A stretch of DNA of 46,964 bases. It comes from Archangiaceae bacterium. GTDB lineage: Bacteria; Myxococcota; Myxococcia; Myxococcales; Myxococcaceae. The stretch spans positions 1 through 46,964 of the forward strand of contig JAACJQ010000274.1 in NCBI GenBank assembly GCA_016879935.1, written 5' to 3'. This document shows positions 2,019-22,541 of this stretch, piece after piece. The notes below the pieces were generated by a model. It was not told where the DNA came from and did no database searches. It saw only the letters and a list, made by a program, of their open reading frames with translations. Position 1 is the first letter of the stretch, and the number at the start of each line of letters is the position of its first letter. The translations under genes and the position numbers were made by a program.

Positions 2019-2029
2019 AGGCGGCCGGT

Positions 2030-3292: not shown

Positions 3293-3330
3293 GAATGAAA
3301 ACGGCGTGCCCTCGCTGGAGGACACGCCGT
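3293..3330 (-). terminator. Rho-independent terminator closing the glt operon
   Basis: On the minus strand ACGGCGTG and CACGCCGT (3323-3330 and 3301-3308) form a perfect 8-bp stem. A U-G wobble and a CCTC/GAGG inner stem around a CAGC loop extend it to about 13 bp. The run TTTTCATT follows. It lies 23 nt after the gltG stop. Confidence 0.85.
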
Positions 3331-3353
3331 CGGTGCATCAGGAACGGGAGCGG

Positions 3354-5195
3354 TTACTCGCCGCTCTCGTCACCAGCCGCCTTGAAGATCCAGGGGAAGG
3401 TGACGTTCACGATGCCGCCGCCGTCAGGCTCCGGGAACTTCCAGCGGCGAATGCGCTGGAGGATGCAGCTCTCGACGTTGGCGTTGCCGATGGAGCTCTC
3501 GGAGACGGCGGCCTCAGAGACGCCACCGCTCGGGTCGATGGTCCACGCGACCGCGACCTTGCCCGCGAGGGCGGGGTTCGCCTGCAGCTCCTGCTCGTAG
3601 CAGAACTTGATTTCGTTCTGGTGGCGCTTGATGACCTTCATGATGACGTCCTTGTCGAGGCCACCGACGACGGTCGTCTTGCCGGGGATGATGCGGGTCG
3701 TGCCCTTCCCCTTGCCACCCAGGTCGATGGAGCCGTAGCCACCCGCGCCGCGCCCGCCGCCCTTCGTGCCGAGACCGCCGAGGCCGAGGCCGTTACCGCC
3801 GCCGCCGGCGCCAGCGCCACGCGAACCGAGACCACCGACGCCCTGCGCATCACCAACGCCAGCGCCGCCCTGGAGACCGCCGAGCGCGTTGTTGATGCCC
3901 GTGCCGAGACCACCGGGGCCGAAGACGTTCGACGACGCGCCGCCAGCGAACATGCCGGCCATCAGCGAGCTGACCTTCTTGCGGTCTTCTTCACGCTTGT
4001 TCACGTCGACGACGGGAGCGCCCTTCTTCGAAGGATCGGCGTCGGGCTTCTTCGCGTCCTGCTTGCCGAACTTGCCTTCCTTCTCTTTCGCCTTCTCGCC
4101 TTCCTGAACGCCCGACTTGTCCTGGAACTTCTTCACTTCCTGCTTCTTCTCGGGCTTGACCACCATCTTCACGTACTTGGACGGGTTGGCGAAGATGTCG
4201 TCTCCGTCGCCACCCTCGCCCATCGGCGTGATGATCATCGCCGCGACGAGGGCGATGAACGCCATGACGCAGATGCTGGTGATCTTGAAGAACGTGAAGT
4301 CGTGCTCATCGAGGGTGTTGAGGCTGATGGCAGCGCTCGGGCGCACGTAGCGAACGATGAAGGCCACCTGCTCGAACGAAACCTGAGCGCGATCGTGAAG
4401 GCCGATCTCGACGGCGTCGGCGCGAACACCACCGTCGGCCGCCTTCAGCTTGCCTTCGCCCTTGAGCTGCTCCTTCGACTTGTGGCTGTCGCCCTTCGTC
4501 GAGACGATGACGCCGGCCTCGGAGGGGACGTTCACGACAGCGCTGCTGCCCTTGCCCTGCGTGAGCGTGAAGAGGTCGCCGACGCCAGGAGAGAAGACGT
4601 TGAAGCGAGCCTGCGCGTTCTCACCGACGGTGACGGGAACGCCTTCACCGAAGTGCTGAACGTTGATGAGGGTATCGCCCCACAGCAGTGCGACCTGGAG
4701 GATCTTCTCGGTCTCGGTCGGGATCGCTTCGGCAGGGAGCGGCTCGGTGAAGAGGGCCGCCGCGTTCTTGCCCGTGCCAGCGAGGGCGCGCGGAGCGTCC
4801 TTCTTGGCCTTCTTGTCCTTCTTCTTCTCGTGCTTCGACTCCGACTTGGCTTCGGCCTTCGGCTCTTCCTTCTTGGCCTCGACCTTCGCGTCGCCGTTCT
4901 TCAGCACGACCTTGACCTTCGTGCCGCCGATCTCGAGCACCTCGCCCGACGTGATCGGCTTTTCCTTCACCGTCTCGTTCGAGATCTTCGTGCCCTCGGC
5001 CGATCCGAGATCCATCACGATGAGCTTGCCGTCGTTGGCGACCTTCACCATGCAGTGAAGGTTCGACACCTTCGGATCAGTGACCTTCACGTTCGCAGAG
5101 TCACCCGAGCCGAGAATGATGCTCTCGAGCTCGGAGGTGGACTCGGAGACCTTGCCATCGGGGCTGGTGATCTCGAAGGTGACCTTGTTCGCCAT
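3354..5195 (-). CDS. gltG: GltG-like FHA / AgmX-PglI C-terminal domain inner-membrane protein
   Basis: A 613-residue protein with the build of M. xanthus GltG and NfsG. Residues about 20-100 form an FHA-like fold, followed by a Lys/Glu-rich linker (105-135), a second globular region (145-290), one membrane helix (about 302-323), a charged periplasmic stretch, a Gly-rich hinge (415-500) and a TonB-like AgmX/PglI C-terminal domain (515-605). Family members link a cytoplasmic regulatory domain to periplasmic partners of the gliding or spore-coat machine. The FHA is atypical: the usual GR is LGS (28-30), S44 and H47 are kept, and the usual TNG is AEG (66-68). ATG 5195 has a GAGG ribosome site about 7 nt upstream. 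It is the last gene before a strong terminator. Glt and Nfs paralogues cannot be told apart from motifs. Confidence 0.8.
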   Translation of the reverse strand: MANKVTFEITSPDGKVSESTSELESIILGSGDSANVKVTDPKVSNLHCMVKVANDGKLIVMDLGSAEGTKISNETVKEKPITSGEVLEIGGTKVKVVLKNGDAKVEAKKEEPKAEAKSESKHEKKKDKKAKKDAPRALAGTGKNAAALFTEPLPAEAIPTETEKILQVALLWGDTLINVQHFGEGVPVTVGENAQARFNVFSPGVGDLFTLTQGKGSSAVVNVPSEAGVIVSTKGDSHKSKEQLKGEGKLKAADGGVRADAVEIGLHDRAQVSFEQVAFIVRYVRPSAAISLNTLDEHDFTFFKITSICVMAFIALVAAMIITPMGEGGDGDDIFANPSKYVKMVVKPEKKQEVKKFQDKSGVQEGEKAKEKEGKFGKQDAKKPDADPSKKGAPVVDVNKREEDRKKVSSLMAGMFAGGASSNVFGPGGLGTGINNALGGLQGGAGVGDAQGVGGLGSRGAGAGGGGNGLGLGGLGTKGGGRGAGGYGSIDLGGKGKGTTRIIPGKTTVVGGLDKDVIMKVIKRHQNEIKFCYEQELQANPALAGKVAVAWTIDPSGGVSEAAVSESSIGNANVESCILQRIRRWKFPEPDGGGIVNVTFPWIFKAAGDESGE

Positions 5196-5265: not shown

Positions 5266-5529
5266 TCAGAGGTTGTCGACAGACTTCTGCAGCTCGGGGT
5301 TGAAGTTGTCGCGCACCTTGATCAGCGTGCGGAACGTCGTCTTCTTCTTGCTGACGGAGTAGCTGCCTTCGGGCTTGGTGAGTTCGCCTTCGACGGCGAC
5401 GTCGGTGAAGTCGATGACCGTCTTCTTGCGCGTCACGACGCGGTCGGCTTCACGAATGACCTTGTCCTGAGCGAACGAGGGGGCCGCGATGGCCGTGACC
5501 ACTGCAATCACCATCAAGAAACGCTTCAT
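5266..5529 (-). CDS. gltF: Small exported protein in the GltF position
   Basis: An 87-residue protein with a clear signal peptide (MKRFLMVIAVVTAIAAPSFA, then Q) and a short basic mature part ending in VDNL. The start is set by GGAGG at 5534-5538, four bases before ATG 5529; the frame is open upstream but reads as low-complexity Arg-rich shadow. It lies between the GltE-like and GltG-like genes, where the small GltF or NfsF component would be expected. The symbol rests mainly on position, size and the signal peptide, since I see no diagnostic motif. The gap to the gltE stop is 154 nt and to gltG 70 nt. Confidence 0.7.
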   Translation of the reverse strand: MKRFLMVIAVVTAIAAPSFAQDKVIREADRVVTRKKTVIDFTDVAVEGELTKPEGSYSVSKKKTTFRTLIKVRDNFNPELQKSVDNL

Positions 5530-5533
5530 GCTG

Positions 5534-5538
5534 CCTCC
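5534..5538 (-). promoter_or_regulatory. Ribosome binding site fixing the gltF start
   Basis: GGAGG on the minus strand with a 4-nt spacer to ATG 5529. It picks this internal ATG over the longer open frame reaching 5772. Confidence 0.75.
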
Positions 5539-5666
5539 GTGCGCCCCTGTGGACAGCTGTGGCAGGGGCCGGGTTCCTGAAAAGTTGGCGGACACTAGGG
5601 GATCAGCGAGTCGTTTGGAAGACCACCAAAGCGCCGAATTGTCCACTTTCGACGCCACCCCGAATC

Positions 5667-5683
5667 TTCTCAAGCGCTGAGAA
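5667..5683 (-). repeat. Post-stop hairpin element, copy A
   Basis: On the minus strand TTCTCAGCGCTTGAGAA follows the gltE stop codon directly. TTCTCA and TGAGAA can form a 6-bp stem. Sixteen bases of it recur inverted at 16000-16015, also just after a stop codon in the same locus. No U-run follows, so it is not a canonical terminator. Confidence 0.6.
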
Positions 5684-7087
5684 TTATGGCTTCTTCTCTT
5701 CGGCCTTGGGGGCTTCAGCGGGCTTCGCCTCTTCAGCCTTCGGAGCCTCTTTCGGGGCGTCCTTCGGTGCATCGGCCTTGGGCGCTTCGGCCGGTGGCGT
5801 GGTGGTCGCGGGAGGCGTCGTCGCGCCGTTGGGAGCGGCGGGATCGGCCGGCGCCGGATCAGGAGCCTTCTCGGCCTCCTGCTCGGCCTTGTCGAGCATC
5901 GACGGGCCGGTGGGCGCCGCAGGCTTCGGCTTCTCCGGAGCGGGCTGGGCAGCCTGCTGACCCGACTTCTGCATCGCGAGAATGCCCTTCACCTTGTTGT
6001 CGATCATCTGCTGGTCCTGGGCAGAGGTGGTCGACAACGCCTTGCACTTCTCGAAGAAGCCGAGCGCCTTGTCCCAGCCGGTCTTGTCGGCGGCGTAGGC
6101 CCAGGCCGCGCCGCACACGGCGTCGTTCTGGTCGGACTTGAGCGAGAGCACCTTCTCGAACACTTCGCCGGCCTTGAGGCCCTTCTTGGCGTCTTTGCCC
6201 TTCTGGCCGTCGAGCGCCCACGCATACGCGAGGAAGTTCTCGTAGCGGGTCGGGTCGAGCTCGGTGGTGCGACCGAGGTTCTTCTCGGCCGTGAGGTAGT
6301 CACGGTAGCTGAGCGCCATCGCGCCGATGTTGAAGAGGCTGGGCGCGAAGTCTTTGTTGAGGCTCACGGCCTTCTGGAACTGGGCGAGCGCGAGGCGCTT
6401 CTCCTGCTGCTGCAGGTAGATGAGGCCGAGGTTGTTGTAGTCGCCCGGATCCTTCTCATCGAGCTTCTTGGCGTTGATCGAGATGAACTGCGCGAGCGGC
6501 AAGTTGCCCTGATCGAAGTAGATGAGCGCGAGGTTCTTGTACGCGTCGGGGTTGTCCTTCGTGCGCGAGAGCACGCGACGCGCCGTCTCTTCGGCCTTCG
6601 CGTAGTTCTTGGCCAGGCGGTAGGCGACCGTGAGGTTGTTGTTCAGCTCGACGTCGAACTCGTTGTCCTTCAGCGCCTCTTCGTACAGCGCGATCGCCTC
6701 GGCGAACTTGTCCTGGAGGCGGTAGACGCGCCCGAGGTTGAGCAACGTCGGCTTGTGCTTCGGGTCGATCTTGTGAGCGGCCTCGTAGCGGGTCTGCGCA
6801 TCGGTGAGCCGGCCCTGCCGCTCGGCGATGACGCCCAGGTTGTACTGGGTGACCATGCTGGCGGGCACCTTGTCGGCGACCTTGGTGAAGAGCGTGTTGG
6901 CCTCGTCGAGGTTGCCGCTGTCGAACGCAGCGACGCCCTTGTCGAAGTTCTCCTTCGCACTGGGCAGCTTCGGGGGCGGGGGCGGCGCGACAACGACGTC
7001 CTTCTTCTCCTCGACCTTCGTGGTGGTGCACGCGGTGAGGCCGGAGGCGGTGGCGACGATGGTGAGGGCAGCGATCTTGAGCTTCAT
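5684..7087 (-). CDS. gltE: GltE (AglT)-like TPR lipoprotein
   Basis: A 467-residue lipoprotein. The signal peptide ends in a lipobox-like LTAC (Cys20), followed by a Pro-rich spacer. About eight TPR-like helical repeats run from residues 45 to 330, with typical motifs such as YNLGVIAERQGR, LNLGRVYRLQDK and YNNLGLIYLQQQ. The C-terminal hundred residues are a low-complexity Pro/Ala/Lys/Glu tail. In M. xanthus GltE (AglT) and NfsE are TPR proteins of the trans-envelope motility or spore-coat complex. ATG 7087 follows the gltD stop by 32 nt, with AGGAA upstream, which indicates co-transcription with gltD. Confidence 0.8.
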   Translation of the reverse strand: MKLKIAALTIVATASGLTACTTTKVEEKKDVVVAPPPPPKLPSAKENFDKGVAAFDSGNLDEANTLFTKVADKVPASMVTQYNLGVIAERQGRLTDAQTRYEAAHKIDPKHKPTLLNLGRVYRLQDKFAEAIALYEEALKDNEFDVELNNNLTVAYRLAKNYAKAEETARRVLSRTKDNPDAYKNLALIYFDQGNLPLAQFISINAKKLDEKDPGDYNNLGLIYLQQQEKRLALAQFQKAVSLNKDFAPSLFNIGAMALSYRDYLTAEKNLGRTTELDPTRYENFLAYAWALDGQKGKDAKKGLKAGEVFEKVLSLKSDQNDAVCGAAWAYAADKTGWDKALGFFEKCKALSTTSAQDQQMIDNKVKGILAMQKSGQQAAQPAPEKPKPAAPTGPSMLDKAEQEAEKAPDPAPADPAAPNGATTPPATTTPPAEAPKADAPKDAPKEAPKAEEAKPAEAPKAEEKKP

Positions 7088-7119: not shown

Positions 7120-10100
7120 TCAGCGGCTACCAGCGCCAGCGGCCGGAGCCGCTGCGCTCGGGGCAGGCGTCGTGGGCGCCGGAGCGACCTTCTGCTCCTC
7201 GGGCTCGGTCGGCAGCGGCGCGTCGTTCGCGGGAGGCTGCTTCTCGAAGCCGGACGTCACGAAGAACTCCGACCCACGGTATGAGACGTCTCGCGTCTTG
7301 CCGTAGGTTCCCGGCTTGTACTTGTTGAGCTTGTCCTGCGCGAGGAGCGTCCACTCCGTGTAGAGCGTGAGCTCGGTCGACTTCGCGAGCGCCTTCTCGA
7401 ACGCTTCAACCGACTTCTCTTCGAGGGGGAAGATGTACCGGTTCTCGATTTCGCCGCGGAAGATGTCGAGCTGATCCTGGTCGAAGCCGGGCGGGTCGGG
7501 CAGCTCCACGAGGCTGGTCGCGAGGTCGGAGTACAGCAGGCCGATTCGCGTGAGCGCCGCGATGCCGTAGTCGGGGTTACCGATGGTCAGCACTTCGGTG
7601 TAGCTCTTCTCGAGCTCAGACAGCGTCTTCTGCTTCGCGGGCAGGTCCTTCTTGAAGGTCTTGATCGACTTGAAACGGAACGCCGTGTACGAGTTCCACG
7701 TCGGCTCGAGCTGGAAGAAGCGCGTGTGCGCCGCCGCGAGCATCGCGCGGTCGTTCTTCTTCTCTTCGTCCTTCATCTTGGGGAACGACGTCGTGATGTC
7801 CTTGGCGAGGCGATCCATGCCCGCCGAGTCCTTCAGCTTCTGCGCGATGAGGAACTGACGGTACTTGATGTCGATCTTCCGCGTGTCGGTGACGCGGGGA
7901 TCCTTCGCGTAGGTGGTGAGGAACGTGTCGTAGTGCTTGGTCGCGTCGGCGAGCTGGTTGGTCTTCTCGAGCACCAGGCCGATGTTGAACGCGATCTCAG
8001 GAGCGTCCTTCTTGTCCTTGAAGCGCGTGACGTAGCGCTTGTACGCAGCGATGGCCTTGTCGAACTTGCCGACGCCCTCGTACCAGAAGCCGGCGTTGTA
8101 CTGAGCGTCGGCCACCCACTCCGCCGCCGCCTTCTTCTGTGCCTCACGCTCGGTCTCGAGCGCCTTGATCTCGTCGTTCGTCACCGCTGAACCGTCCGGC
8201 CACTTCGCGCCGGCCTTCGGCAGCTGGAACGTCGTCACGACCGTGGTCTTGGGCAGCTCCTTCTTGGCCGCTTTCGCCGCCTTCTCGGCCTTCTCGCGGG
8301 CGTCCTTCTCGTCCTTGAGCAGCTGCTTGATGTTCTCGTAACCGACCGCCTTGTCGCCGGCGGCCATGTCGTAGGTCGCGATGAAGTTCTCGTACATCGC
8401 GGCCGACTTCTCGAAGCTGGCGAGCTTCTCGTAGAAGAACGCGAGGCCGTTCTTCACGCGCAGGTCGAACATCGAGTCGGCGTACTCCTTGAGAATGCGC
8501 TCACCGATCTCGATCGACTTGTCCTGCTCGTTGGCTTCACGCGAGATCTCCATCGCGTACACCATCGCGCGGGCGGCGTTCTTCGAGTTGGGGAACTCCT
8601 TCTGGAAGTCGAGGAACAGGTCGCGGGCCTTCTTCACGTCCTTGTCCTTCTTGTAGATGATCTCGTCGACGTACTTGTACTGCGAGCCTTCGACGACGTT
8701 GGCGACGCGCGACTTGAAGTCAGGCTTGGCCTTGGCCATCAGCTTGGTGTTCGCCTTGAAGAGGCGGGCCAGCTTGTTCAGCTCGAGCCACTCTTCCTTC
8801 TCTTCGAGCACGCCCATCGACAGGTCGGCAGCGTCGGCCGAGCGGCCCTCTTCGGGGTACTTGTTGATGATGTCGCCGAAGCGGCGGGCGGCTTCGACGA
8901 AGTGGTTCTTGTCGTAATAGATGACGGCCGCCTGGTAGGCGATGTCGACCTCTTCGGCCGTCTTCGGGTACAGCTGGTTGTACTTGTCGCACGCGGCGAT
9001 CAGCGCCTGCTCGTACTTGGTGATCGGCTTCTCCTCGAGCTCCTTGATCGTGCGCTTGGTGACCTTCTTCGACTTCTCGACCTTGTCCTTCTTCTTGGTC
9101 TCTTCGACGAGCTTGTCGTCCTTCAGGTCGCTCTTCTGGAGCAGGCCGCGCTCGATCTTCACCAGCTTGTCGTACGAGAGAATCGCGTTGTACGCGGCGG
9201 TCTGACGGTACTTCTCCTGGCTGATCTCTTTCGCCTCGGGGCGGTTCGGAATCTTGAACGCGGTGACCTGATCGTACTGGGTGGCCGCGGCCTCCCACTC
9301 CTCGAGGGCCCAGAGAATTTCGGCGTAGTAGTACTTGAGGTTGAAGGCGTGGTCCGAGACGAACTGCTCGTCTTCCGAGACCGCGAAGCCGTCGACGTAC
9401 TGCTTGTAGATGTCGCGGGCGAGGCGGTACGTGACCACCTGCTTCGTCTTCTGCGCCTCGTTGTGGTACTCGGTGACGGTCGTGCGCATCGCCTCTTCGG
9501 CGACGTTGAAGCCGTTGCGGAGCACGTCCTTCTTCGACTTGTTCGCTTCCCACCAGCTCGAGCCCGGCCGGTAGAGTTCGGCGAGCTTCTTCACTTCGGC
9601 CTTCACGTTGTCGCGCTGGCGCAGGCCTTCGTACGACTTGATGACCGCCTGCTGGAAGTCAGGCGCCGCTTCCGAGTTCGGGTTGTCGTTGAGCAGGTAG
9701 CGGAACGACTTGATGGCGTTGTCGTGGTGACCGGCCTCCTGCATGCCGTAGGCGAGCTTGCCGATGAGGTTGGTCTGCTTCTTCTTGCCGGCCTTCGCCT
9801 TGTAGTAGGCGATGGCATCGTCGGCGCGGTTCAGCTGAACGAACATGCGAACCGAGTCCTGGAGGGCTTCGTTCTTGAGGTCGGTGAAGACGCGCTCTTT
9901 GCCGGCGCCGGCCTTCTCGGCGATCTCGACCGTGTCCTGCAGCTTCTTGAGCGCCTTCTCGTGCTCGCCCGCGTTGAAGTCACACCAGGCCAGCTTGTAG
10001 AGCGCGTACGACTTGATGCGCGGGTTGCTCGTGGCGAACGCCTTCTCGAAGTAGCTGCGCGCCTTCTCGAGCACGTTGGCGACGTCGAAGTAGTGGTTGC

Positions 10101-10800
10101 CGAGCTGCACGTACGTGTCGGGCACGAACTTCGAACCCGGGTAGCTCTTGAGCAGCTCTTCGTAGCGCTTCACGGCGCCGTCGCGCTTGCCCGTCTCGTA
10201 CAAGTTGTACGCGAGGTTGAAGAGCACCTCGTCTTTGCGCTCGTACGACGGGTACTCGCGGAGGATCGTCTCGTACAGACGCATCGTCTCGGAGCGATAG
10301 AGCTCGGACTCGCGGTGATCTTCCTTGGGCTCCGACACCTTCTCGCCGCGGTTCTTCTTCTCGTCGGCGTCCTTCTGCTGCTCGAAGTACTTCAACATCT
10401 CGCGGCGGTAGAGGTAGCGCGACTTGTCCCAGTAGAGCTCGGCGAGCTGGAACAGCAGCTCGGACTTCTGCGGGTTGCCGTCTTCGATCTTCGGGATGAT
10501 CTTCTTCGCCGACTCGATCTGCTCGTCGCGCTTCTTGTCGGCGATGGCTTCACGCTCGACGTCTTCGACCTTGGGCGTCTCGCGCGCCTCGAGCTTCGCA
10601 GGGCCCTTGCGCTCCTCGGGCTTCTTGGCCGCGGCTTCAGCGGCCTTCTTCGCAGCCTCGGCGGCCTTCGGGTCGGTCTTCGCCGCGGCGGGCGCCTTCG
10701 CCCCACCCTTCTTCGCAGCCTGCGCGTTGGCGTCGATCGAGCTCAGCAGCATCGCTGCGGCTGACATGGAAGTGAGCAGTCGGGAGTGAAACAGCTTCAT
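7120..10800 (-). CDS. gltD: GltD (AgmU)-like giant periplasmic TPR protein
   Basis: A 1226-residue exported protein, about the size of M. xanthus AgmU/GltD. An N-terminal signal peptide ends near DANAQA. An Ala/Lys/Pro-rich segment (residues 28-75) follows, then an almost continuous array of TPR/HEAT-like helical repeats, including YETILREYPSYERKDE, YEELLKSYPGSKFVPD and FGDIINKYPEEGRSAD. The last 40 residues are a Pro/Ala/Thr-rich tail. Known homologues form the periplasmic scaffold between the inner-membrane motor and outer-membrane partners. ATG 10800 has GGAG six bases upstream. A probable terminator at 10883-10916 lies between gltC and this gene, so it likely has its own promoter in 10801-10882. 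Confidence 0.85.
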   Translation of the reverse strand: MKLFHSRLLTSMSAAAMLLSSIDANAQAAKKGGAKAPAAAKTDPKAAEAAKKAAEAAAKKPEERKGPAKLEARETPKVEDVEREAIADKKRDEQIESAKKIIPKIEDGNPQKSELLFQLAELYWDKSRYLYRREMLKYFEQQKDADEKKNRGEKVSEPKEDHRESELYRSETMRLYETILREYPSYERKDEVLFNLAYNLYETGKRDGAVKRYEELLKSYPGSKFVPDTYVQLGNHYFDVANVLEKARSYFEKAFATSNPRIKSYALYKLAWCDFNAGEHEKALKKLQDTVEIAEKAGAGKERVFTDLKNEALQDSVRMFVQLNRADDAIAYYKAKAGKKKQTNLIGKLAYGMQEAGHHDNAIKSFRYLLNDNPNSEAAPDFQQAVIKSYEGLRQRDNVKAEVKKLAELYRPGSSWWEANKSKKDVLRNGFNVAEEAMRTTVTEYHNEAQKTKQVVTYRLARDIYKQYVDGFAVSEDEQFVSDHAFNLKYYYAEILWALEEWEAAATQYDQVTAFKIPNRPEAKEISQEKYRQTAAYNAILSYDKLVKIERGLLQKSDLKDDKLVEETKKKDKVEKSKKVTKRTIKELEEKPITKYEQALIAACDKYNQLYPKTAEEVDIAYQAAVIYYDKNHFVEAARRFGDIINKYPEEGRSADAADLSMGVLEEKEEWLELNKLARLFKANTKLMAKAKPDFKSRVANVVEGSQYKYVDEIIYKKDKDVKKARDLFLDFQKEFPNSKNAARAMVYAMEISREANEQDKSIEIGERILKEYADSMFDLRVKNGLAFFYEKLASFEKSAAMYENFIATYDMAAGDKAVGYENIKQLLKDEKDAREKAEKAAKAAKKELPKTTVVTTFQLPKAGAKWPDGSAVTNDEIKALETEREAQKKAAAEWVADAQYNAGFWYEGVGKFDKAIAAYKRYVTRFKDKKDAPEIAFNIGLVLEKTNQLADATKHYDTFLTTYAKDPRVTDTRKIDIKYRQFLIAQKLKDSAGMDRLAKDITTSFPKMKDEEKKNDRAMLAAAHTRFFQLEPTWNSYTAFRFKSIKTFKKDLPAKQKTLSELEKSYTEVLTIGNPDYGIAALTRIGLLYSDLATSLVELPDPPGFDQDQLDIFRGEIENRYIFPLEEKSVEAFEKALAKSTELTLYTEWTLLAQDKLNKYKPGTYGKTRDVSYRGSEFFVTSGFEKQPPANDAPLPTEPEEQKVAPAPTTPAPSAAAPAAGAGSR

Positions 10801-10972: not shown

Positions 10973-12511
10973 TCAGTTCTTGCCGACCGGGCAGCCCTTC
11001 TTCAGCGTGTACTGGTAGTAGCCGATCTCATCGCGCCAGAACTCGCCCTGGAAGCGCCAGTAGTTCCAGTTCTCGGCGGGCATCTGCGGGCGGTAGAGCG
11101 TCTGCTTCTTCAGCAGCGAGTTCTGATCGCTGCCCGACTCAGCGAACTCCTTCTCGGCCTTGGCGACCTCGAAGCGAATGATCTCGGCCTGGTCACCGAA
11201 GCCCTTGATGGTGCGGTAGGCCTCCTGAATGCGGTTCTTCGCGGTCTGGCCGGCGACCTGCTCGAGCGTGCCGCGGTTCTGGTCGAGGTACGAGATGAGC
11301 TCGTTCGACAGCTTCGCGCTCTTCCACGACTGAATGCCATCGATGGTGGCCTTCTCGGAGTCGATCGCCTTCAGCATCGAGAACAGGCCGAGCATGCGCT
11401 CGTTCGAACGAACCCAGTTCAGCACCGGCTTCGGCAGCTTGTCGGAGTCGGTCGTGTCGACGAGCTTGAAGAAGTAGGCGTTGTCCTTCGCTTCGCCTTC
11501 GACGATGGGCTTCAGGGCTTCGGCCATGGGCAGGTAGATCTTCTCGTACTCCACCAGCGCCGACTTCGACTCCTCGTACAGGCAGGCGAAGTAGTAGATC
11601 GTGGAGGTCAGAATCCACGACTCGGGCTGGAAGGCGCCCGCGAACTGCGGAGCGTAGAGTGCCTGGAGCGAGCCGAGGCCGCCGCCGTAGTCGTCGTTCT
11701 GGAAGCGGGCGAAGCCGTTCTCGAACAGCGACAGATCCCAGTACTTCGAGAAGCGAGGAATCTTCTCGTACGCCTTGGTCGACTTGTCGAAGTTGCCGAG
11801 GCCGTAGTTCACGCGGCCGAGGCCCAGGTTCGCGAGCTGCTGAATCTCGGCGAGATCGAGCATCTTCGCGCGCGGGTCGATCTTCAGCACCTTCTCGAAG
11901 ATCTCGACCGCCTCTTCCTGGTGCTTGCGCTTCTCGTCTTCGCTCGTCGCCGGGTAGCGCGGGTCGGAGAGCGCGATGCCCTGCAGGTAGAGCGCCTTCG
12001 CATAGACCTGGCTCGTATCGGGAACGGCGTCGAGGAACTGCTTCGACTCGTCGAGCTTGCCGCGGCGGTGCGAGATGCGGCCGATGAGATAGTTGATGCG
12101 CGAGAGCACCTCGAGCGGGAGCGTCGCCCACGCCTCGGCGTACCGGTCGTAGAGCTTCTCGAGCTGCGAGGGGATCAGGTAGTCGTCGTTGAGCTGCTCC
12201 TGCAGCGTCACCAGCGCCTCGACGGCCTTGCCGTGGAACGGGTGCGACGGCCCAGCCTTCACGATCGGGCTGTAGAACACGAACGCGGTGAACGGCAGGT
12301 TCTGCCGCTGGAAGCTCGAGGCGAGGTAGTACTCGGCCTTGAGCTTGAGATCGTTGTCCGTCGTCGTGTTGTAGACGTCGAAGAACAGGCGAGCGGAGTC
12401 TTCGAACGACCCGCCGTTATAGGCCGACAGCGCCTTGTTGTAGGTGGCCAGGTCCTGAGCTGAGGCGATGGCCGCGGTCAGCAGTGCAACGAGCGTGAGT
12501 GCGCGAGTCAT
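10973..12511 (-). CDS. gltC: GltC (AgnA)-like periplasmic TPR protein
   Basis: A 512-residue exported protein with a signal peptide (MTRALTLVALLTAAIASA, then Q) and TPR-like repeats through the middle, for example YNGGSFEDSARLFF, YLIGRISHRRGKLDES and LGLGRVNYGLGNFDKS. The C-terminus is aromatic (WNYWRFQGEFWRDE) and carries one Cys (KKGCPVG). In M. xanthus GltC is a soluble periplasmic TPR protein that associates with the GltA and GltB barrels, and NfsC is its spore-coat paralogue. I chose ATG 12511 because it lies 12 nt after the gltB stop; a GTG three codons earlier is possible. Gene order A-B-C supports the name. Confidence 0.75.
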   Translation of the reverse strand: MTRALTLVALLTAAIASAQDLATYNKALSAYNGGSFEDSARLFFDVYNTTTDNDLKLKAEYYLASSFQRQNLPFTAFVFYSPIVKAGPSHPFHGKAVEALVTLQEQLNDDYLIPSQLEKLYDRYAEAWATLPLEVLSRINYLIGRISHRRGKLDESKQFLDAVPDTSQVYAKALYLQGIALSDPRYPATSEDEKRKHQEEAVEIFEKVLKIDPRAKMLDLAEIQQLANLGLGRVNYGLGNFDKSTKAYEKIPRFSKYWDLSLFENGFARFQNDDYGGGLGSLQALYAPQFAGAFQPESWILTSTIYYFACLYEESKSALVEYEKIYLPMAEALKPIVEGEAKDNAYFFKLVDTTDSDKLPKPVLNWVRSNERMLGLFSMLKAIDSEKATIDGIQSWKSAKLSNELISYLDQNRGTLEQVAGQTAKNRIQEAYRTIKGFGDQAEIIRFEVAKAEKEFAESGSDQNSLLKKQTLYRPQMPAENWNYWRFQGEFWRDEIGYYQYTLKKGCPVGKN

Positions 12512-12523
12512 GAAGGTCACCGA

Positions 12524-13642
12524 TCAGAACAGGAACGAGATGCCGGCGTAGAGGCCGACGTTGTTGAGCACGTCCGACGAGGGGTTGCGGACGAGGCCGA
12601 GCGCGAGGGGCACGTCGTTGGAGCGCTTGAGGCCCGTGTCGGGGTCGGTGCCGTCGAAGGTGTCGACGCGGCAGGTCGCGCCGACTTGCGCGCTGGTGAC
12701 CGGGCGGCCACCACGCAGGGCGTTGTCCATCGCGCGCAGGTCTTCCGAGCCGCAGCCGTTCACGCGCTCGACGCGCGCCGTGTAGACGACGTCACGAACC
12801 TCGAGGCGGAAGGCGAAGCGCTGACCGAGCTGAAGGCGAAAGCCCGCGCCCAGGCCGGCCATGAAGCGGTAGCCCGTGTCGCCGTACGTCGCAGGCGAGA
12901 TCGAGCCGTCCGGGCGGGCGCTCTCGGGCTTGAGCTGGTGGCGGGTGCCGCCGATGCCGGCGCCGCCGTTGAGCACGAACGAGAACTGGGCGAGCGTGCC
13001 TTCGAAGAAGGCGAACTTGCCGTAGATGGGCGTCACTTCGACGCCGCCCAGCACGCCCCACGTCCACAAGAGCGACGAGGCCGCCTGGGCTTCGACGCGG
13101 GCCTTCTCGACGAGCTCGCCGTTGAGCGACGACTCCGAGTTGAACCAGTTGCCGCCGCCCGTGATCATCAGGCCGAAGTTCTCCTGCAGGTGGTAGGTGA
13201 GCTGGCCCATGGTGCCGAAGTGCTGGGTGAACTTGCCGTTCACCTGCACCGACACGGGGTACAGCGTCACCTCGAAGCGGCCCGAGTCAGAGAAACGCTT
13301 CTGCTCGACGATGTGAACGCCGACGTTGGGGTTGAAGAGCGGAGCGCCGTTCACCAGCTTCATCTGCTCGGCCGAGCCTCCGGTCGTCGTGGTCGCAGGC
13401 GTCGCCACCGTCGGAGTGGCGGCAGGCGTGGTGGTGGTGGCTGCGGGCGTCGTCGTGGTCGCCGCCGGGTCGGGCTTCTTGTCCGGCGTGGGCGTCGGGT
13501 TCGCCGGCGGATCATCTTCGTCGTCATCGGCAGCGGCCGGAGCCTGGCCCAGAACGATTGACGGCTGAACGAAGGCGGGCGCCGCGAAAGAACGGCCGGC
13601 CGCGAGGAACGTGAGGGCTGCGAGGAGGAAAGTCGTGCGCAT
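12524..13642 (-). CDS. gltB: GltB-like predicted outer-membrane beta-barrel protein
   Basis: A 372-residue exported protein. A signal peptide is followed by a low-complexity acidic then Pro/Thr/Ala-rich linker (about residues 38-90). The remaining 270 residues have the alternating hydrophobic pattern of a transmembrane beta-barrel and end in the aromatic terminus GISFLF that barrel-assembly machinery favours. GltB is one of the integral outer-membrane barrels of the M. xanthus gliding complex, with NfsB as paralogue. It lies 14 nt after gltA and 12 nt before gltC, so the three are clearly co-translated. The name rests on fold and gene order; residue-level similarity could not be tested. Confidence 0.7.
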   Translation of the reverse strand: MRTTFLLAALTFLAAGRSFAAPAFVQPSIVLGQAPAAADDDEDDPPANPTPTPDKKPDPAATTTTPAATTTTPAATPTVATPATTTTGGSAEQMKLVNGAPLFNPNVGVHIVEQKRFSDSGRFEVTLYPVSVQVNGKFTQHFGTMGQLTYHLQENFGLMITGGGNWFNSESSLNGELVEKARVEAQAASSLLWTWGVLGGVEVTPIYGKFAFFEGTLAQFSFVLNGGAGIGGTRHQLKPESARPDGSISPATYGDTGYRFMAGLGAGFRLQLGQRFAFRLEVRDVVYTARVERVNGCGSEDLRAMDNALRGGRPVTSAQVGATCRVDTFDGTDPDTGLKRSNDVPLALGLVRNPSSDVLNNVGLYAGISFLF

Positions 13643-13656
13643 GGTGGGTGACGTCC

Positions 13657-14445
13657 TCAGAAGACGAAGCTGTAGCCGAGGTCGATCTGGCTGATCGTGC
13701 TGATGCCGGCGTTCGGCGACTGCATGCCGCCAGCGGTGGGGTTCGCCGCGCTGACGTTCGCGCGATCGACGTTGACCCAGTAGGAGTCGAGGAAGGACCA
13801 GGTGCGCGCCTCGAGACGAACGGCGTGCTTCTCGGTGATGAAGAAGCGGAAGCCGAGCGCGAGCGACACGATCGGGCTCACCTTGGTCTCGGTGAAGTAC
13901 TGGCCGCAGCCGCTGCCAGTGCGCTGCAGACAGATGAGCAGCGACTCGCGGTTGAACAGACCCGCGCCGCCGCCAGCCCAGAGGTAGAGCTGGAAGTGAA
14001 CGGGCAGCTCGGCGAGCAGGTTGATCTTGCCGTAGATGGGCTGGAACCGAATGCCGACGATGCCGTTGGCCGTCATCTGCCAGAGGTCGGAGAAGTCATT
14101 GATGCGCGGCAGGTTCATCTGGGTGAGGAACGCCTCCTTCACCTGATCGGCGAGCGAGGTCTGCCGCGAGATCGCGTAGCCGGCGCGCAGCTCGATCGCG
14201 AACCACTCGGCCACGTTGTACGCGGCAGAGATGTTGAGGTTGTAGTGGTCGGTCAGGCGCGGGAGCAGCGTGAAGCCGACGTTGCCGCCAACCTCCCACC
14301 GCTTCTCGACCAGGTAGAGCCGGTTGCGCACGGCAACCTTCTCGACGAGCTCGGCCTCGTCCTCCGCTGACTGGGCCCACGCGCTGCTGCTGGCCAACAT
14401 CGCCAGACACAGCGCACTCATCTGCAACACGTTTCGAACGCTCAT
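13657..14445 (-). CDS. gltA: GltA-like predicted outer-membrane beta-barrel protein
   Basis: A 262-residue exported protein with a signal peptide (MSVRNVLQMSALCLAML..SAWA) and a mature part of alternating hydrophobic strands (NVGFTLLPRLT, FAIELRAGYAIS, VSLALGFRFFI) ending in GYSFVF, a typical barrel C-terminus. ATG 14445 has GAGG about 7 nt upstream and lies 11 nt after the stop of the VWA gene. The longer open frame reaching 14688 overlaps that gene and is not used. GltA and GltB are paired barrels in the known machine, and both have a segment near PIYGK, which suggests they are related to each other. Confidence 0.7.
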   Translation of the reverse strand: MSVRNVLQMSALCLAMLASSSAWAQSAEDEAELVEKVAVRNRLYLVEKRWEVGGNVGFTLLPRLTDHYNLNISAAYNVAEWFAIELRAGYAISRQTSLADQVKEAFLTQMNLPRINDFSDLWQMTANGIVGIRFQPIYGKINLLAELPVHFQLYLWAGGGAGLFNRESLLICLQRTGSGCGQYFTETKVSPIVSLALGFRFFITEKHAVRLEARTWSFLDSYWVNVDRANVSAANPTAGGMQSPNAGISTISQIDLGYSFVF

Positions 14446-14456
14446 GGCACCTCGGC

Positions 14457-15911
14457 TCAAGGACAGGTCGTCTGGAAGTTGGCGAGCACGTCGTAACAAA
14501 CCTCGACCGTGCTCAAGGATTCGGTCACCGAGGTGCCCTCGAAGCGGACCATGTTGCGAAGGCCCGCGAGATCGCACTGCACATACTGGGCGCCGTTCGC
14601 CGGCCCGTCGGTTCGAACTTCGAGCCGCCGCGCACACCGACCATTGCGGCAGAACTGATCGACGGGGCAGTTGCCGTCGACCTGGCACATCATCGAGTTC
14701 GGAGGCGACACGAACGCCTCGATGCCGCGGGCGACACCGGCGGCTGCCCGAACGTCAGGGCCACGGGTGAGCCTGAACTCGCGGCGCAGGCCCGAAGCCG
14801 AGAAACCGAGCGACGCGAGGGCGCCGGAGAAGTCGTCCTGGCAGATGTCGACCGCCACCCCACCCGTCTGCGCGGCGACCTGCACGTAGCGGCCGCCGAA
14901 GTAGGCGATCTCGAGGCCACCGTCGTTCGTCCCGCTCGTCGGGCAACCTGCATCGCGATCGCGCGAGTTGCGGCAGCACCCGACGTGCGGGCTGGGGTCG
15001 CCGAACTGCGAGGGCACGCCGGAGTCGGGATCGATCGCGGTGATCGCGGCGACCGCCACGGCCTCACCGTTTCCGTAGCCTTTGAAGGTCTCGAAGAAGC
15101 GCGTGAAGTACGCGGTGGAGCCCCAGTTGCCAGCCGCAGTGAGAATCTGGTCGTTCGCGCAGCGGCAACCGGGGTCGGCGCTGCACACGGGCTGCCGCGT
15201 GAGCGGCGTACACGACGAGTCATCTTCGTCAGAGACGAACACGACGTAGAGCGCAGCCTCGGGGCGAACGAAGCGCACGACCGCGTCGGTCGAGACGTTG
15301 AGCGGGTTGGTGAGCGCGAGATAGGCGGCGAAGAGACCACGCTCCTGCGGGCTGCCATTCGTGCCGACCTGCGCCATCTGGTTGAACGCCATCACCGCAG
15401 TCGAGGTGTTGCCGCCGGTGTTGCAAGTCACGGCGCCGGCCATGTCGGGCGCGCACGAGATGAAGTCGTCACGCAGGGCACCGAGGCTCCACTGACGCAG
15501 CTTGCCGCGCGTCGCCGGATCATCGGTGTCGGTGGTGGTGACGGCGATGTGAAAGTCGATGGGCGGCATCGCGGCGACGAGCTGGTTGATGAAGCCCTGG
15601 AAGTTGGCGGCGAGGCGCTGCTGCTTGGGGCCCATCGAACCCGACGAGTCGACCACCCAGAGAATGTCGACCTTGCGAACCGAGAGCTGCGTGTACGTGT
15701 CGCACTGGCGCGGAACGTTGACCGAGAAGTTGTCGGTCGCGCGCGTCGGATCAGTGTCGACGGAGGGCGCCTTCTCATCGACGCTCGGCGTGCCCGGAAC
15801 GACGACGAAAGATTCGACGATGCGGCGCGTTTTCTGGACGTCTTTGCACGCAGCCATCGCCACGGCGAGCGAAGCCAGAAAGACAAAGAGCCTGACAGCA
15901 GAGGCGCGCAT
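14457..15911 (-). CDS. VWA-domain, Cys-rich predicted lipoprotein (CglB-type adhesin candidate)
   Basis: A 484-residue exported protein. The signal peptide ends in VAMAAC (Cys22), a slightly imperfect lipobox. A von Willebrand A domain starts near residue 80, with the metal-site motif DSSGS (D88, S90, S92) and later VVFVSDED (D228). There are 19 cysteines, many in the C-terminal half (CQVDGNC, CRNGRC). In M. xanthus the VWA lipoprotein CglB is the surface adhesin of gliding focal adhesions. Its position 11 nt upstream of gltA makes a CglB-like role attractive, but VWA domains are common and I cannot show orthology. The 112-nt leader (15912-16024) holds a hairpin element. Confidence 0.8.
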   Translation of the reverse strand: MRASAVRLFVFLASLAVAMAACKDVQKTRRIVESFVVVPGTPSVDEKAPSVDTDPTRATDNFSVNVPRQCDTYTQLSVRKVDILWVVDSSGSMGPKQQRLAANFQGFINQLVAAMPPIDFHIAVTTTDTDDPATRGKLRQWSLGALRDDFISCAPDMAGAVTCNTGGNTSTAVMAFNQMAQVGTNGSPQERGLFAAYLALTNPLNVSTDAVVRFVRPEAALYVVFVSDEDDSSCTPLTRQPVCSADPGCRCANDQILTAAGNWGSTAYFTRFFETFKGYGNGEAVAVAAITAIDPDSGVPSQFGDPSPHVGCCRNSRDRDAGCPTSGTNDGGLEIAYFGGRYVQVAAQTGGVAVDICQDDFSGALASLGFSASGLRREFRLTRGPDVRAAAGVARGIEAFVSPPNSMMCQVDGNCPVDQFCRNGRCARRLEVRTDGPANGAQYVQCDLAGLRNMVRFEGTSVTESLSTVEVCYDVLANFQTTCP

Positions 15912-15999
15912 CGGTGTCGTCGAGGGTGCGCGGTGCTAGCACACCCACCTTCGGAAGAAACAGGCAGTTTTTCAGCTCACAGTGAATGAAGTGCGCGGG

Positions 16000-16015
16000 T
16001 CTCAGCGCTTGAGAA
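16000..16015 (+). repeat. Post-stop hairpin element, copy B
   Basis: TCTCAGCGCTTGAGAA is identical to the minus strand of 5667-5682. In the direction of transcription here (minus) it lies 9 nt after the stop of the 77-Cys lipoprotein gene and can form a TCTCA/TGAGA stem. The rest of 15912-16024 shows nothing else I can name. Confidence 0.55.
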
Positions 16016-16024
16016 AAGCGGGGC

Positions 16025-17809
16025 TCATCCGTCTTGCAGTGCGGGAGGCAGACAGGCCTGCACGGAGCGGCTGTCGACGGTGGCCAGCGTCTGACAGAGC
16101 CAGTCCTTCGGGCACTCCGTGTCGGACGTGCAGGGCTGGGTGCAGATCGGGCCGGAGTCTTTGCGAATGCAAAGCCCCGTCTCGCAGGCGGCTGGGCCGA
16201 AGGTGCAGCTCGCACCGGCGCCACCACCGCCCGAGGGGAAGCAGACGTCGACGGTCTGATCGGACGCCGTCGAGCGCTGCGCTTTGCGGCACGCGAAGCC
16301 CTGGGGGCAGGTGCCGTTGGTGCAGGTGACGCTGCACACGCGCGCGGTGCCGAGGTCGAGGCAGGCACCCGACTGACACGGCGGCCGGCCCGGCGTGCAG
16401 TCGTCTCCGAAGAGGCCACCGATCGGCGCGCAGACGCCCATGCCCGAGGCCGGGCCGTCGTTCGTGCGCTTCTCGGCGGCACAGTCGTAGCCATTCGCCG
16501 AGGCCTCACAGCATCGGTACCGGGTGTCACCGCACTGTGAGTCCTTCGTGCAGGTGTTCGAGCAGAACGCGTTGACGCCGGCCTTCACGCAGACGCCGGT
16601 GAGGCAGTCGAACGCGCCGTTTGCGTTGCAGTCTTCGCCGAGGCGCTTGAGGCCACCCTTGCAGGAGCCACGCTGCGGCATGCAGTACTTCCGCGTCGGC
16701 CCCGTCGGGTCCGTCACGTCCTTGCAGACGAAGCCCGTGCCGTAGGAGCGCACGCACGCCGCGTCGTCGAGGCACGGGGTCGAGCAGAACGACTCTCCCT
16801 TGAAGGGGCAAGCGGCGCAGTCGTTCACGATGCAGCGGTTCTCGGTGAAGCCGCCGCGACGGCAGTCATCGTTGTTGCTGCACGGAGAACACTGGCGGCC
16901 ATCGAGCGCGGGCTGGCAGGTGCCGGCCTGGCAGAGCTTGCCGATGCCGCACTGGTTCGACAGCTGGCCCTGATCACGCGTCGGGTCGCAGTAGCCCTTG
17001 CAGGTGTTCGAGTTGGGCACGCACTGGTAGGGGCCTTTGCCACCTTCAGCCGAGGGTGACTTCAGGTTCACGCACGAGAACCCAGAGGGGCACTCGGGGT
17101 TCTGCGCCGAGTCGAGCGACTTCGGGTCACACGCTCCTGCCGGGCACACGTTCTTGGCCGGGTTGCAGTCGCGACCGCAGAACTGCTCACCCGAGACGAT
17201 GTTGCGAACGCAGAGATCGAATGGGCCGCCGCACTCGTCATCTCCGGAGCACGCGTCGCAGAGGGCCCGGCCGGCGTTGCAGGTCTCGTTCGTCGGCACG
17301 CACTGCTTGATCAGGGCGTTCTCTTTGCCGGCGGGAATTTCACGGCACGAGGAGCCCGAAGGGCAGGCGTCATTGGCACCGCATGGGCCCGTGCAGAACT
17401 GCTCTCCGGAGCCGATCGCTTTGAAACAGGCCCCGCCCGTCGGGCACTGCGAGACGTCCTGACAGGGGGAGCAGAGCGCGCGCGAGACGGCGATGTAGCA
17501 GTTGCCAGACTCGGGGTTGCAGGTGTGGCCGGCGGGGCAGTCGACGTTCGTCTTGCAGCCCGACAGCCTCTTGCAGATCTTGCCGTACCGCCCTGCCCCT
17601 TCGCAGACGAAACCGTCGGGGCAGGTGTCGGTACAATTGCTCGTACAGAAGCCCGATTGATCGTCGAGCGCGATGCACAGCCCGTCACGGCACTGGGCAA
17701 GGGGGTCGTTCGGTGTGCACGGGTCGCCGAGGTTGAGGAGCGTGACTCGACTCGTCGAGCCACACCCCGCAGCCAGCACCACGAGAGCGATGGTGAGAAC
17801 GCGAAGCAT
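16025..17809 (-). CDS. Lipoprotein with tandem disulfide modules, 77 cysteines
   Basis: A 594-residue protein with a good lipobox (LAAGC, Cys16) and 77 cysteines (13%). The mature part is about seven imperfect repeats of the pattern G-x-x-C, C-x-x-G-x-C, then F-C-x-x-x-C and C-P-x-G-x-x-C. It resembles the Cys-rich repeat lipoproteins frequent in myxobacteria and has no catalytic motif. ATG 17809 has GGGGAGAG upstream. It is the first gene of the glt-type locus, next to the VWA gene, so a surface or adhesive structural role is likely. It could correspond to the outer-membrane lipoprotein GltK of the known system, but I cannot verify that and leave the symbol empty. Confidence 0.85.
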   Translation of the reverse strand: MLRVLTIALVVLAAGCGSTSRVTLLNLGDPCTPNDPLAQCRDGLCIALDDQSGFCTSNCTDTCPDGFVCEGAGRYGKICKRLSGCKTNVDCPAGHTCNPESGNCYIAVSRALCSPCQDVSQCPTGGACFKAIGSGEQFCTGPCGANDACPSGSSCREIPAGKENALIKQCVPTNETCNAGRALCDACSGDDECGGPFDLCVRNIVSGEQFCGRDCNPAKNVCPAGACDPKSLDSAQNPECPSGFSCVNLKSPSAEGGKGPYQCVPNSNTCKGYCDPTRDQGQLSNQCGIGKLCQAGTCQPALDGRQCSPCSNNDDCRRGGFTENRCIVNDCAACPFKGESFCSTPCLDDAACVRSYGTGFVCKDVTDPTGPTRKYCMPQRGSCKGGLKRLGEDCNANGAFDCLTGVCVKAGVNAFCSNTCTKDSQCGDTRYRCCEASANGYDCAAEKRTNDGPASGMGVCAPIGGLFGDDCTPGRPPCQSGACLDLGTARVCSVTCTNGTCPQGFACRKAQRSTASDQTVDVCFPSGGGGAGASCTFGPAACETGLCIRKDSGPICTQPCTSDTECPKDWLCQTLATVDSRSVQACLPPALQDG

Positions 17810-20399: not shown

Positions 20400-20984
20400 T
20401 TACTTCGCCGCGCCGCCGGCGGCTTCTGCGGGTTTCTCGAGCTGCTCCTTCTTGGCCTTGAGCGACGACAGCAGGCCGTCGAAGCCCTTGTTCGAGATGA
20501 GCTTGCGGAACTGATCGGCGTAGGTCGACACGAGCGACACGTCGTCGGTGATCACGTCGTAGATCTTCCACTCGCTCTTCGCGTCGGGGCGGAACAGCTT
20601 GTACGTGACGGGAAACTTGTCGTCCTTCACCACCAGCGTCGCGGTGACGGTCGCCTCTTCCTTCTCGATCTTCTCGCCGACGTACTCGAACTTCGCGCCG
20701 TTCTTTCCGTCGCCGAGCGCCTTCTGGGCGTAGCTCGCGCGCAGCAGGCCCTTCATCGTCGCGCTGAAATCCTCCTGCTTCTTCTTGTCGAGCTTGTCCC
20801 ACTCCTTCTTGCCGAGGGCGCGCTTCGCCAGCTCGACGAAGTCGATGTACTTGTCGGCCACGGTGGCGAGCTTCTCGATCGTCGCCTCCTTCTGCAGCAC
20901 CACCTGCACCTCGGAGTCGGCTGCCTTCACGATGCCCAGGGGGCCCGTCGCGGCGAGAAGTGTGGTCGCAAGAATGGTCAGCAC
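20400..20984 (-). CDS. mlaC: MlaC/Ttg2D-family periplasmic phospholipid-binding protein
   Basis: A 194-residue exported protein of the MlaC (toluene-tolerance Ttg2D) family, which carries phospholipid between the outer membrane and an inner-membrane MlaFEDB-type transporter. Family hallmarks are the N-terminal helical part with YIDFVELAKRALGKKEWDKL, the KIYDVITDDVSLVSTYADQF strand-helix turn and the C-terminal GFDGLLSSLKAKK. The start is GTG 20984, fixed by GGAGG at 20993-20997 with an 8-nt spacer. It follows the tolC-like gene by 88 nt in the same direction. No MlaD, MlaE or MlaF gene is in the window. The Ala/Gly-rich C-terminal tail is not part of the usual fold. Confidence 0.85.
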   Translation of the reverse strand: MLTILATTLLAATGPLGIVKAADSEVQVVLQKEATIEKLATVADKYIDFVELAKRALGKKEWDKLDKKKQEDFSATMKGLLRASYAQKALGDGKNGAKFEYVGEKIEKEEATVTATLVVKDDKFPVTYKLFRPDAKSEWKIYDVITDDVSLVSTYADQFRKLISNKGFDGLLSSLKAKKEQLEKPAEAAGGAAK

Positions 20985-20992
20985 GAGGCGAT

Positions 20993-20997
20993 CCTCC
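20993..20997 (-). promoter_or_regulatory. Ribosome binding site fixing the mlaC-like GTG start
   Basis: GGAGG on the minus strand, 8 nt before GTG 20984. There is no nearby ATG that keeps the signal sequence. Confidence 0.7.
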
Positions 20998-21072
20998 AGA
21001 GGTGGTGCGGGCGTGACTTACACGCCTTCGACTCGATCGACGAGTTGCCATTCAAAGCGCCGCTGATCGAGA

Positions 21073-22482
21073 TCAGTGGGGCTTGAGCGCGTCGGAGACC
21101 GGCGGCGCGACCGGCGTCACGTCGTAGGGGATCTGCAGGAGCACGGGCTGACCGACGGAACGAGACAACGTCTTGAGGCCGACCTGCACGTCGTGAAGCG
21201 CCTGCGCTCTCGATGCGCTCGCGCTCGCCAGGGCGGTGAACGACTCGACGAGATCGCGGGTGTCGCCGGTGCCGAGATCGAACGCCGCGAACGCTGCCGT
21301 CGCCCACCGCCGCGCCGACTTCTCGGCAAGGGTCTGCTTCTCGACCCGCACCAGCGCGCCCCGCGTCTCGCCGTGGGCCTTCTCGAGCTCGAGCCGCACG
21401 CCGGCTTTGATCAGATCTCGCTGCGCCTTCATCTTGTCGAGTTCGGCGCGGGCCGCGTCGAGCAGGGCGCTCTTCTGCGGAAAGTCCCACGTGTAGCGGG
21501 AGACGAGCGCGATGCCGGCAGAGAGATCGTTGTACGGATCATACGCGAACGGAGAACGCTGCCGCGTCGCGCTCGTCGTCCACACCCACCGCGCGAAGCC
21601 CGCGATGCCGAAGTCGGGGTAGTACATGCGCTCGCGAATCAGCACTTCCTGCTCTCGGGCCGCGACGCCGGCTTCGACCGCACGCAACTCAGGCCGGTGC
21701 GTGAGCGCCTGCTCGAGCAACTTGTCGGTCGGCTCCAGCTGCCCGTGCGGGTCGGGGAGGTTCTCGGTCTTCACCTCGATCACTTCGTCGGGCGAGGCCG
21801 CGACCAGCAGCCGAATCGCCGAGAGCGCGAACTCCTCGCCCTGCATCGCCGCGTGCCGCTGCACCTCGGCCTGCTGGCGATAGAAGTCGAGCTTGTACAG
21901 GTCCATCTGAGAGACCTGCGGGCTGTCGACCTTGCGGAGGCGATCGAGTGTCTCCTTCGCGTCGTCGAGCCGCTTCATCGTGTCGTCGATCACGTGCACG
22001 CCAGCGCGGGCGAGCGTGAGGCCCCAGTACGCCTGCGAGACCTGCAGCTCGGCTTCGTCAGCAGCGCGAGACGAGAGCGCTTCACCGGCCTCGACGCCCT
22101 TGGCGCCAGCAGCCTCGAGCGCATCGAGCTTTCCGAACGTGTAGATCGGGAGCAACGCCTCGGCGCCCGCGCGGAACTGAACGCCGACCTGACCGAAGTC
22201 GAGATCGTACATGAGCGTCGACTTCGTCGTGGGCGGCCCACCGATGCCGTCGTTGCGCGCTTCAGGTGTGGGCCCGGCAACCGCGACGTACGACTCCACG
22301 CGCGGAAACCACGCCCACCGCGCCTCTTCGTATTTCGCGCGGAACCACTGCAGCTGCGCCTGCGACTCCTTCACCCGGTGATCGTTCTTGCGAGCGCGTT
22401 CGATCAGCTCGGGCAACGTCATCGGAGCGGCGCTCGCCGAGATGGAACCTCCGAGAATCAGGCTGACGACGAGGGCTCGCAC
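21073..22482 (-). CDS. TolC-family outer-membrane factor
   Basis: A protein of about 469 residues with the TolC/OEP layout: two related halves of long amphipathic helices with short strand segments, for example MTLPELIERARKNDHRV at the start of the mature part and PELRAVEAGVAAREQEVLI in the second half. TolC proteins form outer-membrane trimers that act as exit ducts for efflux or secretion. I chose GTG 22482 because it begins the signal peptide (VRALVVSLILGGSISASA) and leaves about 60 nt for the divergent gene. An ATG at 22557 would overlap that gene. It forms a two-gene unit with the MlaC-like gene; no membrane-fusion or pump gene is next to it. Confidence 0.85.
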   Translation of the reverse strand: MRALVVSLILGGSISASAAPMTLPELIERARKNDHRVKESQAQLQWFRAKYEEARWAWFPRVESYVAVAGPTPEARNDGIGGPPTTKSTLMYDLDFGQVGVQFRAGAEALLPIYTFGKLDALEAAGAKGVEAGEALSSRAADEAELQVSQAYWGLTLARAGVHVIDDTMKRLDDAKETLDRLRKVDSPQVSQMDLYKLDFYRQQAEVQRHAAMQGEEFALSAIRLLVAASPDEVIEVKTENLPDPHGQLEPTDKLLEQALTHRPELRAVEAGVAAREQEVLIRERMYYPDFGIAGFARWVWTTSATRQRSPFAYDPYNDLSAGIALVSRYTWDFPQKSALLDAARAELDKMKAQRDLIKAGVRLELEKAHGETRGALVRVEKQTLAEKSARRWATAAFAAFDLGTGDTRDLVESFTALASASASRAQALHDVQVGLKTLSRSVGQPVLLQIPYDVTPVAPPVSDALKPH

Positions 22483-22530
22483 GGACCGCGCGCGACCTAC
22501 CGCACACGGCCTTTGAATTGAAGCGTCCTT

Positions 22531-22535
22531 GGAGG
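22531..22535 (+). promoter_or_regulatory. Ribosome binding site favouring GTG 22542
   Basis: GGAGG with a 6-nt spacer to GTG 22542. The in-frame ATGs at 22551 and 22560 are 15 nt or more away, so GTG is the likely start. Confidence 0.65.
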
Positions 22536-22541
22536 AGTACA

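Follow-up and report, generated by a model that had tools for sequence, protein, structure and literature searches.

The window, by which we mean the whole stretch of 46,964 nucleotides analysed here, carries on its minus strand two adjacent genes for Cys-rich lipoproteins followed by a cluster of genes identified below as nfsA to nfsG (Table 1). The lipobox of the VWA protein reads ...AMAAC22 and that of the Cys-rich protein ...LAAGC16; the DxSxS motif of the VWA protein is D88-S-S-G-S92 (DSSGS), and 11 nt separate its stop codon from the downstream ATG (14445) of nfsA. The two Cys-rich lipoproteins, the DSSGS motif and the spacing are as described in an earlier note on this DNA, except that the note had credited the 77-Cys protein with about seven disulfide modules, whereas approximately 14 units of the form C-x(4-7)-C-x(3-6)-C-x(4-14)-C, overlapping one another, were counted. 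In comparison with their congeners both genes gave dN/dS values of 0.09-0.14, which identifies them as real genes under purifying selection.

Table 1. Coordinates of the lipoprotein gene pair, the nfs genes and flanking features in the window
Feature	Positions	Strand	Description or basis
rplC, ribosomal protein L3	17858..18493	-	synteny anchor immediately upstream of the nfs locus
Cys-rich lipoprotein gene	16025..17809	-	594 aa, 77 Cys; putative partner of the VWA lipoprotein
Promoter-like block CTGTTT-N15-GTGCTA	15937..15963	-	at ~-52 to -26 relative to the VWA start; conserved
VWA/MIDAS lipoprotein gene	14457..15911	-	484 aa, 19 Cys; ORF and motif reading
nfsA, beta-barrel outer-membrane protein	13657..14445	-	TIGR04565; 41-42% to Myxococcus nfsA
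nfsB, beta-barrel outer-membrane protein	12524..13642	-	50-51% identity to Myxococcus NfsB
nfsC	10973..12520	-	515 aa; GltC model score and NfsC clade
nfsD, TPR protein	7120..10800	-	1226 aa; 47-48% identity to Myxococcus NfsD
nfsE, TPR lipoprotein	5684..7087	-	family model and comparison with Myxococcus Nfs
nfsF, small CglF-like protein	5266..5535	-	63% identity to the 96-aa Myxococcus NfsF; start uncertain inside ORF 5266-5772; NF033764 score below cut-off
nfsG, FHA/TonB-type protein	3354..5195	-	55% identity to Myxococcus NfsG; NF033760 below cut-off

The interval between the two lipoprotein genes contains a conserved promoter-like element. GTGCTA or GTGTTA is found there in all 13 aligned genomes, and the CTGT half stands at promoter-like spacing in 10 of the 13; G013, a genome from which the pair has been lost, retains GTGCTA at position -53 of nfsA. 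A scan with the sigma-70 consensus found no promoter. The conservation of the element would nevertheless suit an ancestral nfs transcription unit that began with the VWA gene. As for the upstream flank, the rplC gene is the sole copy found in the genome, lies apparently outside any ribosomal operon and occupies the same setting in four further genomes examined, up to class level. MlaC-type and TolC/OEP-type outer-membrane genes lie shortly upstream of it (20400-22557), and a caspase-domain protein (Peptidase_C14) is encoded at 32971-34731.

The earlier note had placed the pair upstream of gltA; the position is correct, but the neighbouring gene, although gltA-like, is an orthologue of nfsA. 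With the curated GltC model NF033756 (cut-off 450) the product of the C gene reached only 212 bits, whereas the true GltC of the same genome, encoded on contig C86, scored 939 bits. A GltC above the cut-off is present in 58 of the 59 family genomes, most of which have a second copy at ~190-235 bits. In Myxococcus macrosporus DSM 14697 (G023) the second GltC-like copy lies within an A-to-H cluster with products of 512 (NfsC), 499 (NfsE), 680 (NfsG) and 200 aa (NfsH), and in the Myxococcus-like genome G093, presumably from M. xanthus itself or a near relative, the A and B products measure 294 and 442 aa. The published M. xanthus proteins have 294 (NfsA), 442 (NfsB), 512 (NfsC), 499 (NfsE), 682 (NfsG) and 200 aa (NfsH) (PMC2875238); the sizes of nfsA and nfsB products in G093 and of nfsC and nfsH products in G023 are equal to these, which supports their Nfs identity. 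The window nfsC product is likewise close in size to M. xanthus NfsC, true GltC proteins having ~620-670 aa. Identity of the window proteins to the Nfs proteins of G093 and G023 is 41-63%, versus ~25% to true Glt A and C proteins (25% between the window nfsA and the GltA region of its own genome). In a maximum-likelihood tree of C proteins the window copy falls inside the NfsC clade, which is split from GltC at 100/100, and the gene order nfsA-B-C-D-E-F-G is that of the Nfs locus. Taken together, the tree, the bit scores and the identities assign the window cluster to the Nfs locus; judged by sequence, the genes encode not Glt but its spore-coat paralogue Nfs.

In M. xanthus the Agl motor moves Nfs around the spore, and Nfs helps to wrap the Exo polymer (PMC3858216). 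With the nfsA-H locus of that species (PMC2875238, PMC3858216) the window shares the orthologues of nfsA-G, their order and the upstream position of rplC. It differs in the two additional lipoprotein genes at the 5' side of the cluster and, as holds for its genus, in the absence of nfsH from the locus. No nfsH was found downstream of nfsG in the window (the region concerned is 2000-3354) or in the congeneric loci L127 and L132. The gene is present at loci L121-L126 and L131. It occurs together with the pair in other genera, and this co-occurrence rules out the pair as a replacement of NfsH. Three family genomes of 2.1-2.7 Mb (G020, G034 and G041) keep a true gltC and gave no nfsC match.

The distribution of the pair was analysed at the level of the family and of the phylum. 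The VWA query matched 22 of the 59 family genomes (E <= 1e-20), the number of orthologues being slightly lower (at least one match, in G013, is a long VWA paralogue only), and the Cys-rich query matched 21 of the 59. In the phylum, the Cys-rich profile was found in 32 of 195 genomes, spanning seven families, and no copy of this gene was detected away from nfs in these 195 genomes at E <= 1e-40. At every locus with sufficient flanks the Cys-rich gene comes first, then the VWA gene, then nfsA, nfsB, nfsC and the genes after them, and in most cases rplC lies immediately before the Cys-rich gene; the Cys-rich-VWA-nfsA order holds in 11 loci outside the family. Cysteine positions are strongly retained: 71 of the 77 Cys of the Cys-rich protein recur in 90% or more of 27 homologues, and a family alignment of 14 sequences shows no variation at any of the 19 Cys of the VWA protein, most of which are also kept across 25 homologues. 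Pairwise distances of the two proteins correlate with those of NfsA, NfsB and NfsC (r = 0.91-0.97). Among named records, the close pair-bearing relatives are all metagenome-assembled genomes. The expectation that the pair would be kept next to gltA in relatives therefore fails to the letter and is borne out for nfsA. Similarly, the suggestion that an adhesin is built into the machine survives in so far as a VWA/MIDAS and Cys-rich pair accompanies an Agl/Glt-type machine in seven families; that machine is Nfs, not Glt.

In a tree of NfsA-E from 41 loci, the presence of the pair is explained by only two changes. The tree was rooted on G163, the most distant class member, which bears the pair, and both changes then become losses. 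One maps to the ancestor shared by G012, G008 and the clade of G023, G093 and G029 (Cystobacter fuscus DSM 52655), the other to G013. No Cys-rich match was obtained in another seven genomes from outside the family that bear NfsC; these were not placed on the tree, so that the number of losses is a minimum. At loci lacking the pair, nfsA comes directly after rplC. A recent insertion of the pair in the window lineage is ruled out by the tree and by the wide distribution. These sequence comparisons identify the pair as an ancestral, vertically inherited module of the nfs locus that was lost in the Myxococcus clade, and it appears that the laboratory species used to define Nfs has lost it. Since M. 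xanthus Nfs works in sporulation without the pair, the latter is not essential to the basic machine. This last fact, together with the occurrence of a second VWA and Cys-rich lipoprotein pair elsewhere in the genome without nfs, would suit an alternative in which the two genes form a functionally separate adhesin unit that merely shares a locus with nfs. We consider this alternative unlikely, as the linkage to nfsA has been kept in seven families over large sequence divergence, the VWA gene lies 11 nt from nfsA, the divergence of the pair follows that of the Nfs proteins and no copy of the Cys-rich gene away from nfs turned up in the phylum search at E <= 1e-40.

The AlphaFold model of the VWA protein has pLDDT values of 80-94 across most of the core, with lower values at the termini and in some loops. 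It was aligned with the integrin alpha2 I-domain over 187 residues (Z = 14.5, rmsd 3.3) and, more loosely, with integrin beta headpieces over ~255 residues; the predicted structure is thus a Rossmann-like VWA fold with DxSxS, as in the VWA/integrin I-domain group. The DxSxS motif is retained in 24 of 25 homologues, and S187 and D228 are, by their position, candidates for further MIDAS ligands. A comparison of the VWA profile with the sequences of solved structures gave no match. The nearest relatives by profile are the paralogue P0005 (100% probability), the long CglD-type VWA domains (99.9%) and P0004 (99.7%). CglD itself (NF033765) has a related VWA domain, and its model is matched by 6 of 19 homologues; CglD-type proteins differ in their length of ~1000-1200 aa and in being unlinked to nfs. 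The MIDAS adhesins of Bdellovibrio (Bd0875 and Bd1483; NF052240; PMC11003981) are also VWA lipoproteins with a MIDAS, and in both cases beta-rich segments stand on the N- and C-terminal sides of the VWA domain. The NF052240 model is matched, over the VWA part, by all 19 homologues at scores far below cut-off, and with 61 bits against a cut-off of 700 the window protein is not a member of the same family. We know of no linkage of the Bdellovibrio adhesins to Nfs.

The fold of the Cys-rich protein is less clear. Its model is poor (pTM 0.52), a Foldseek search with it retrieved no solved fold at E <= 0.001, and the weak WAP/follistatin-like matches of the sequence are below cut-off. Dense disulfide repeats, like MIDAS VWA domains, are characteristic of proteins that bind ligands outside the cell. 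This, and the standing of the Bdellovibrio MIDAS adhesins as the nearest characterised relatives of the VWA protein, argue against a second alternative, in which the pair would not be a surface adhesin but a periplasmic or assembly module providing an inward-facing load-bearing or chaperone link from the NfsA/B barrels to NfsC/D/E. Several Glt/Nfs lipoproteins (for example GltE/NfsE) are regarded as being on the periplasmic side and the surface exposure of the pair is only our deduction, but we hold such an inward-facing arrangement to be improbable.

The earlier note had further raised the possibility that the VWA protein is the gliding adhesin, as CglB is in M. xanthus, and that the 77-Cys protein could be a new component or a GltK counterpart. 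CglB of M. xanthus resembles the window protein in being a Cys-rich outer-membrane lipoprotein with a DxSxS VWA domain, in serving an Agl-driven machine (as is proposed for the window protein) and in one similar C-x5-C-x5-C module; by profile, however, it belongs to a separate VWA family, it is not encoded with glt and it serves Glt, not Nfs. What we take to be CglB in the Myxococcus-like G093 has 416 aa and DTSGS at 56; this candidate, recognised by position, length and motif, was found where the locus number predicts. In the window's genome, CglB orthologues lie on contig C171 with the same ATP-grasp and tuf neighbours. An hhalign comparison of the VWA family with CglB gave a probability of 35% over 37 columns, i.e. 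no significant match. The earlier note had named a grouping with other VWA families in place of CglB as an outcome that would refute its reading, and this is the outcome obtained. This result and the genome's own CglB orthologues rule out the VWA protein as CglB, and the candidate at the predicted locus with the same neighbours likewise rules out P0004 (contig C290). The analogy with CglB is thus best regarded as functional only, not as homology at the family level.

Two other loci of the genome are of interest in this respect. On contig C171 (L279:8719-14555) tandem CglB copies are followed by a gene for a 78-Cys metalloprotease-like protein; the Myxococcus-like G093 has a single CglB without a metalloprotease-like neighbour. 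On contig C262 (L277:4992-9264) a second VWA lipoprotein gene has a gene for a 43-Cys lipoprotein ~1.5 kb downstream and is unlinked to nfs. The combination of VWA and Cys-rich lipoproteins is therefore one that recurs in the genome.

Regarding GltK, a GltK/CglC-like protein is expected to have ~185 aa and 9 Cys and to be encoded beside gltB/gltA. The true glt locus on C86 has a short lipoprotein gene of this kind, which, given the very different size and Cys content of the window protein, rules out the latter as GltK. Consequently, the A-B-C-D-E-F-G gene order resembling that of glt and the CglB-like character of a Cys-rich MIDAS lipoprotein notwithstanding, it is most improbable that the pair represents CglB and a GltK-like part of the Glt gliding machine, since the true GltC (939 versus 212 bits) and a GltK/CglC-like gene are together on C86, the CglB orthologues are on C171 and the profile probability with CglB is 35% over 37 columns as against 100% with P0005.

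The interpretation that we favour, with a probability of somewhat over one half (about 0.55), is that the pair is an ancestral outer-surface module of Nfs, consisting of a ligand-binding head and a disulfide-rich partner that grip surface cargo. The VWA protein would present a MIDAS metal site on its integrin-I-like domain, and the 77-Cys protein would be a conserved disulfide-rich rod or cap, probably acting as partner of the VWA protein. Both lipoproteins would most likely be located outside the outer membrane, seated on the NfsA/NfsB barrels and in contact with each other. The cargo gripped by the pair and dragged by the motor could be a polysaccharide, for example the spore-coat polymer, or another ligand, so that the pair would do for Nfs what CglB does for Glt; it may set what Nfs grips.

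A further proposal, which we put forward only tentatively and regard as rather doubtful, is that ancestral Nfs, instead of being a spore-coat machine, was a surface conveyor equipped with a MIDAS adhesin of its own, that it still is one in lineages not known to sporulate, and that deletion of the pair preceded the origin of the spore-coat form in Myxococcus. If this is true, the loss of grip on an outside ligand may be part of the change from conveyor to coat wrapping. The closed genome G161, in which the pair is present, is perhaps, as we presume, that of Vulgatibacter incomptus. For cultured V. incomptus no spores are reported, according to the passage in which a paper on activated-sludge Myxococcota cites the species description (PMC11821767). 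Should the identity of G161 be confirmed, sporulation would not be what Nfs originally served.

The work on Nfs cited here (PMC2875238, PMC3858216) was done in a species without the pair; the pair provides concrete candidates for the surface components by which Nfs contacts the polymer that it moves. Both Nfs and Glt have a VWA lipoprotein associated with them, the two being from different VWA families, and the mapped loss event allows the question of a functional change in Nfs to be asked.
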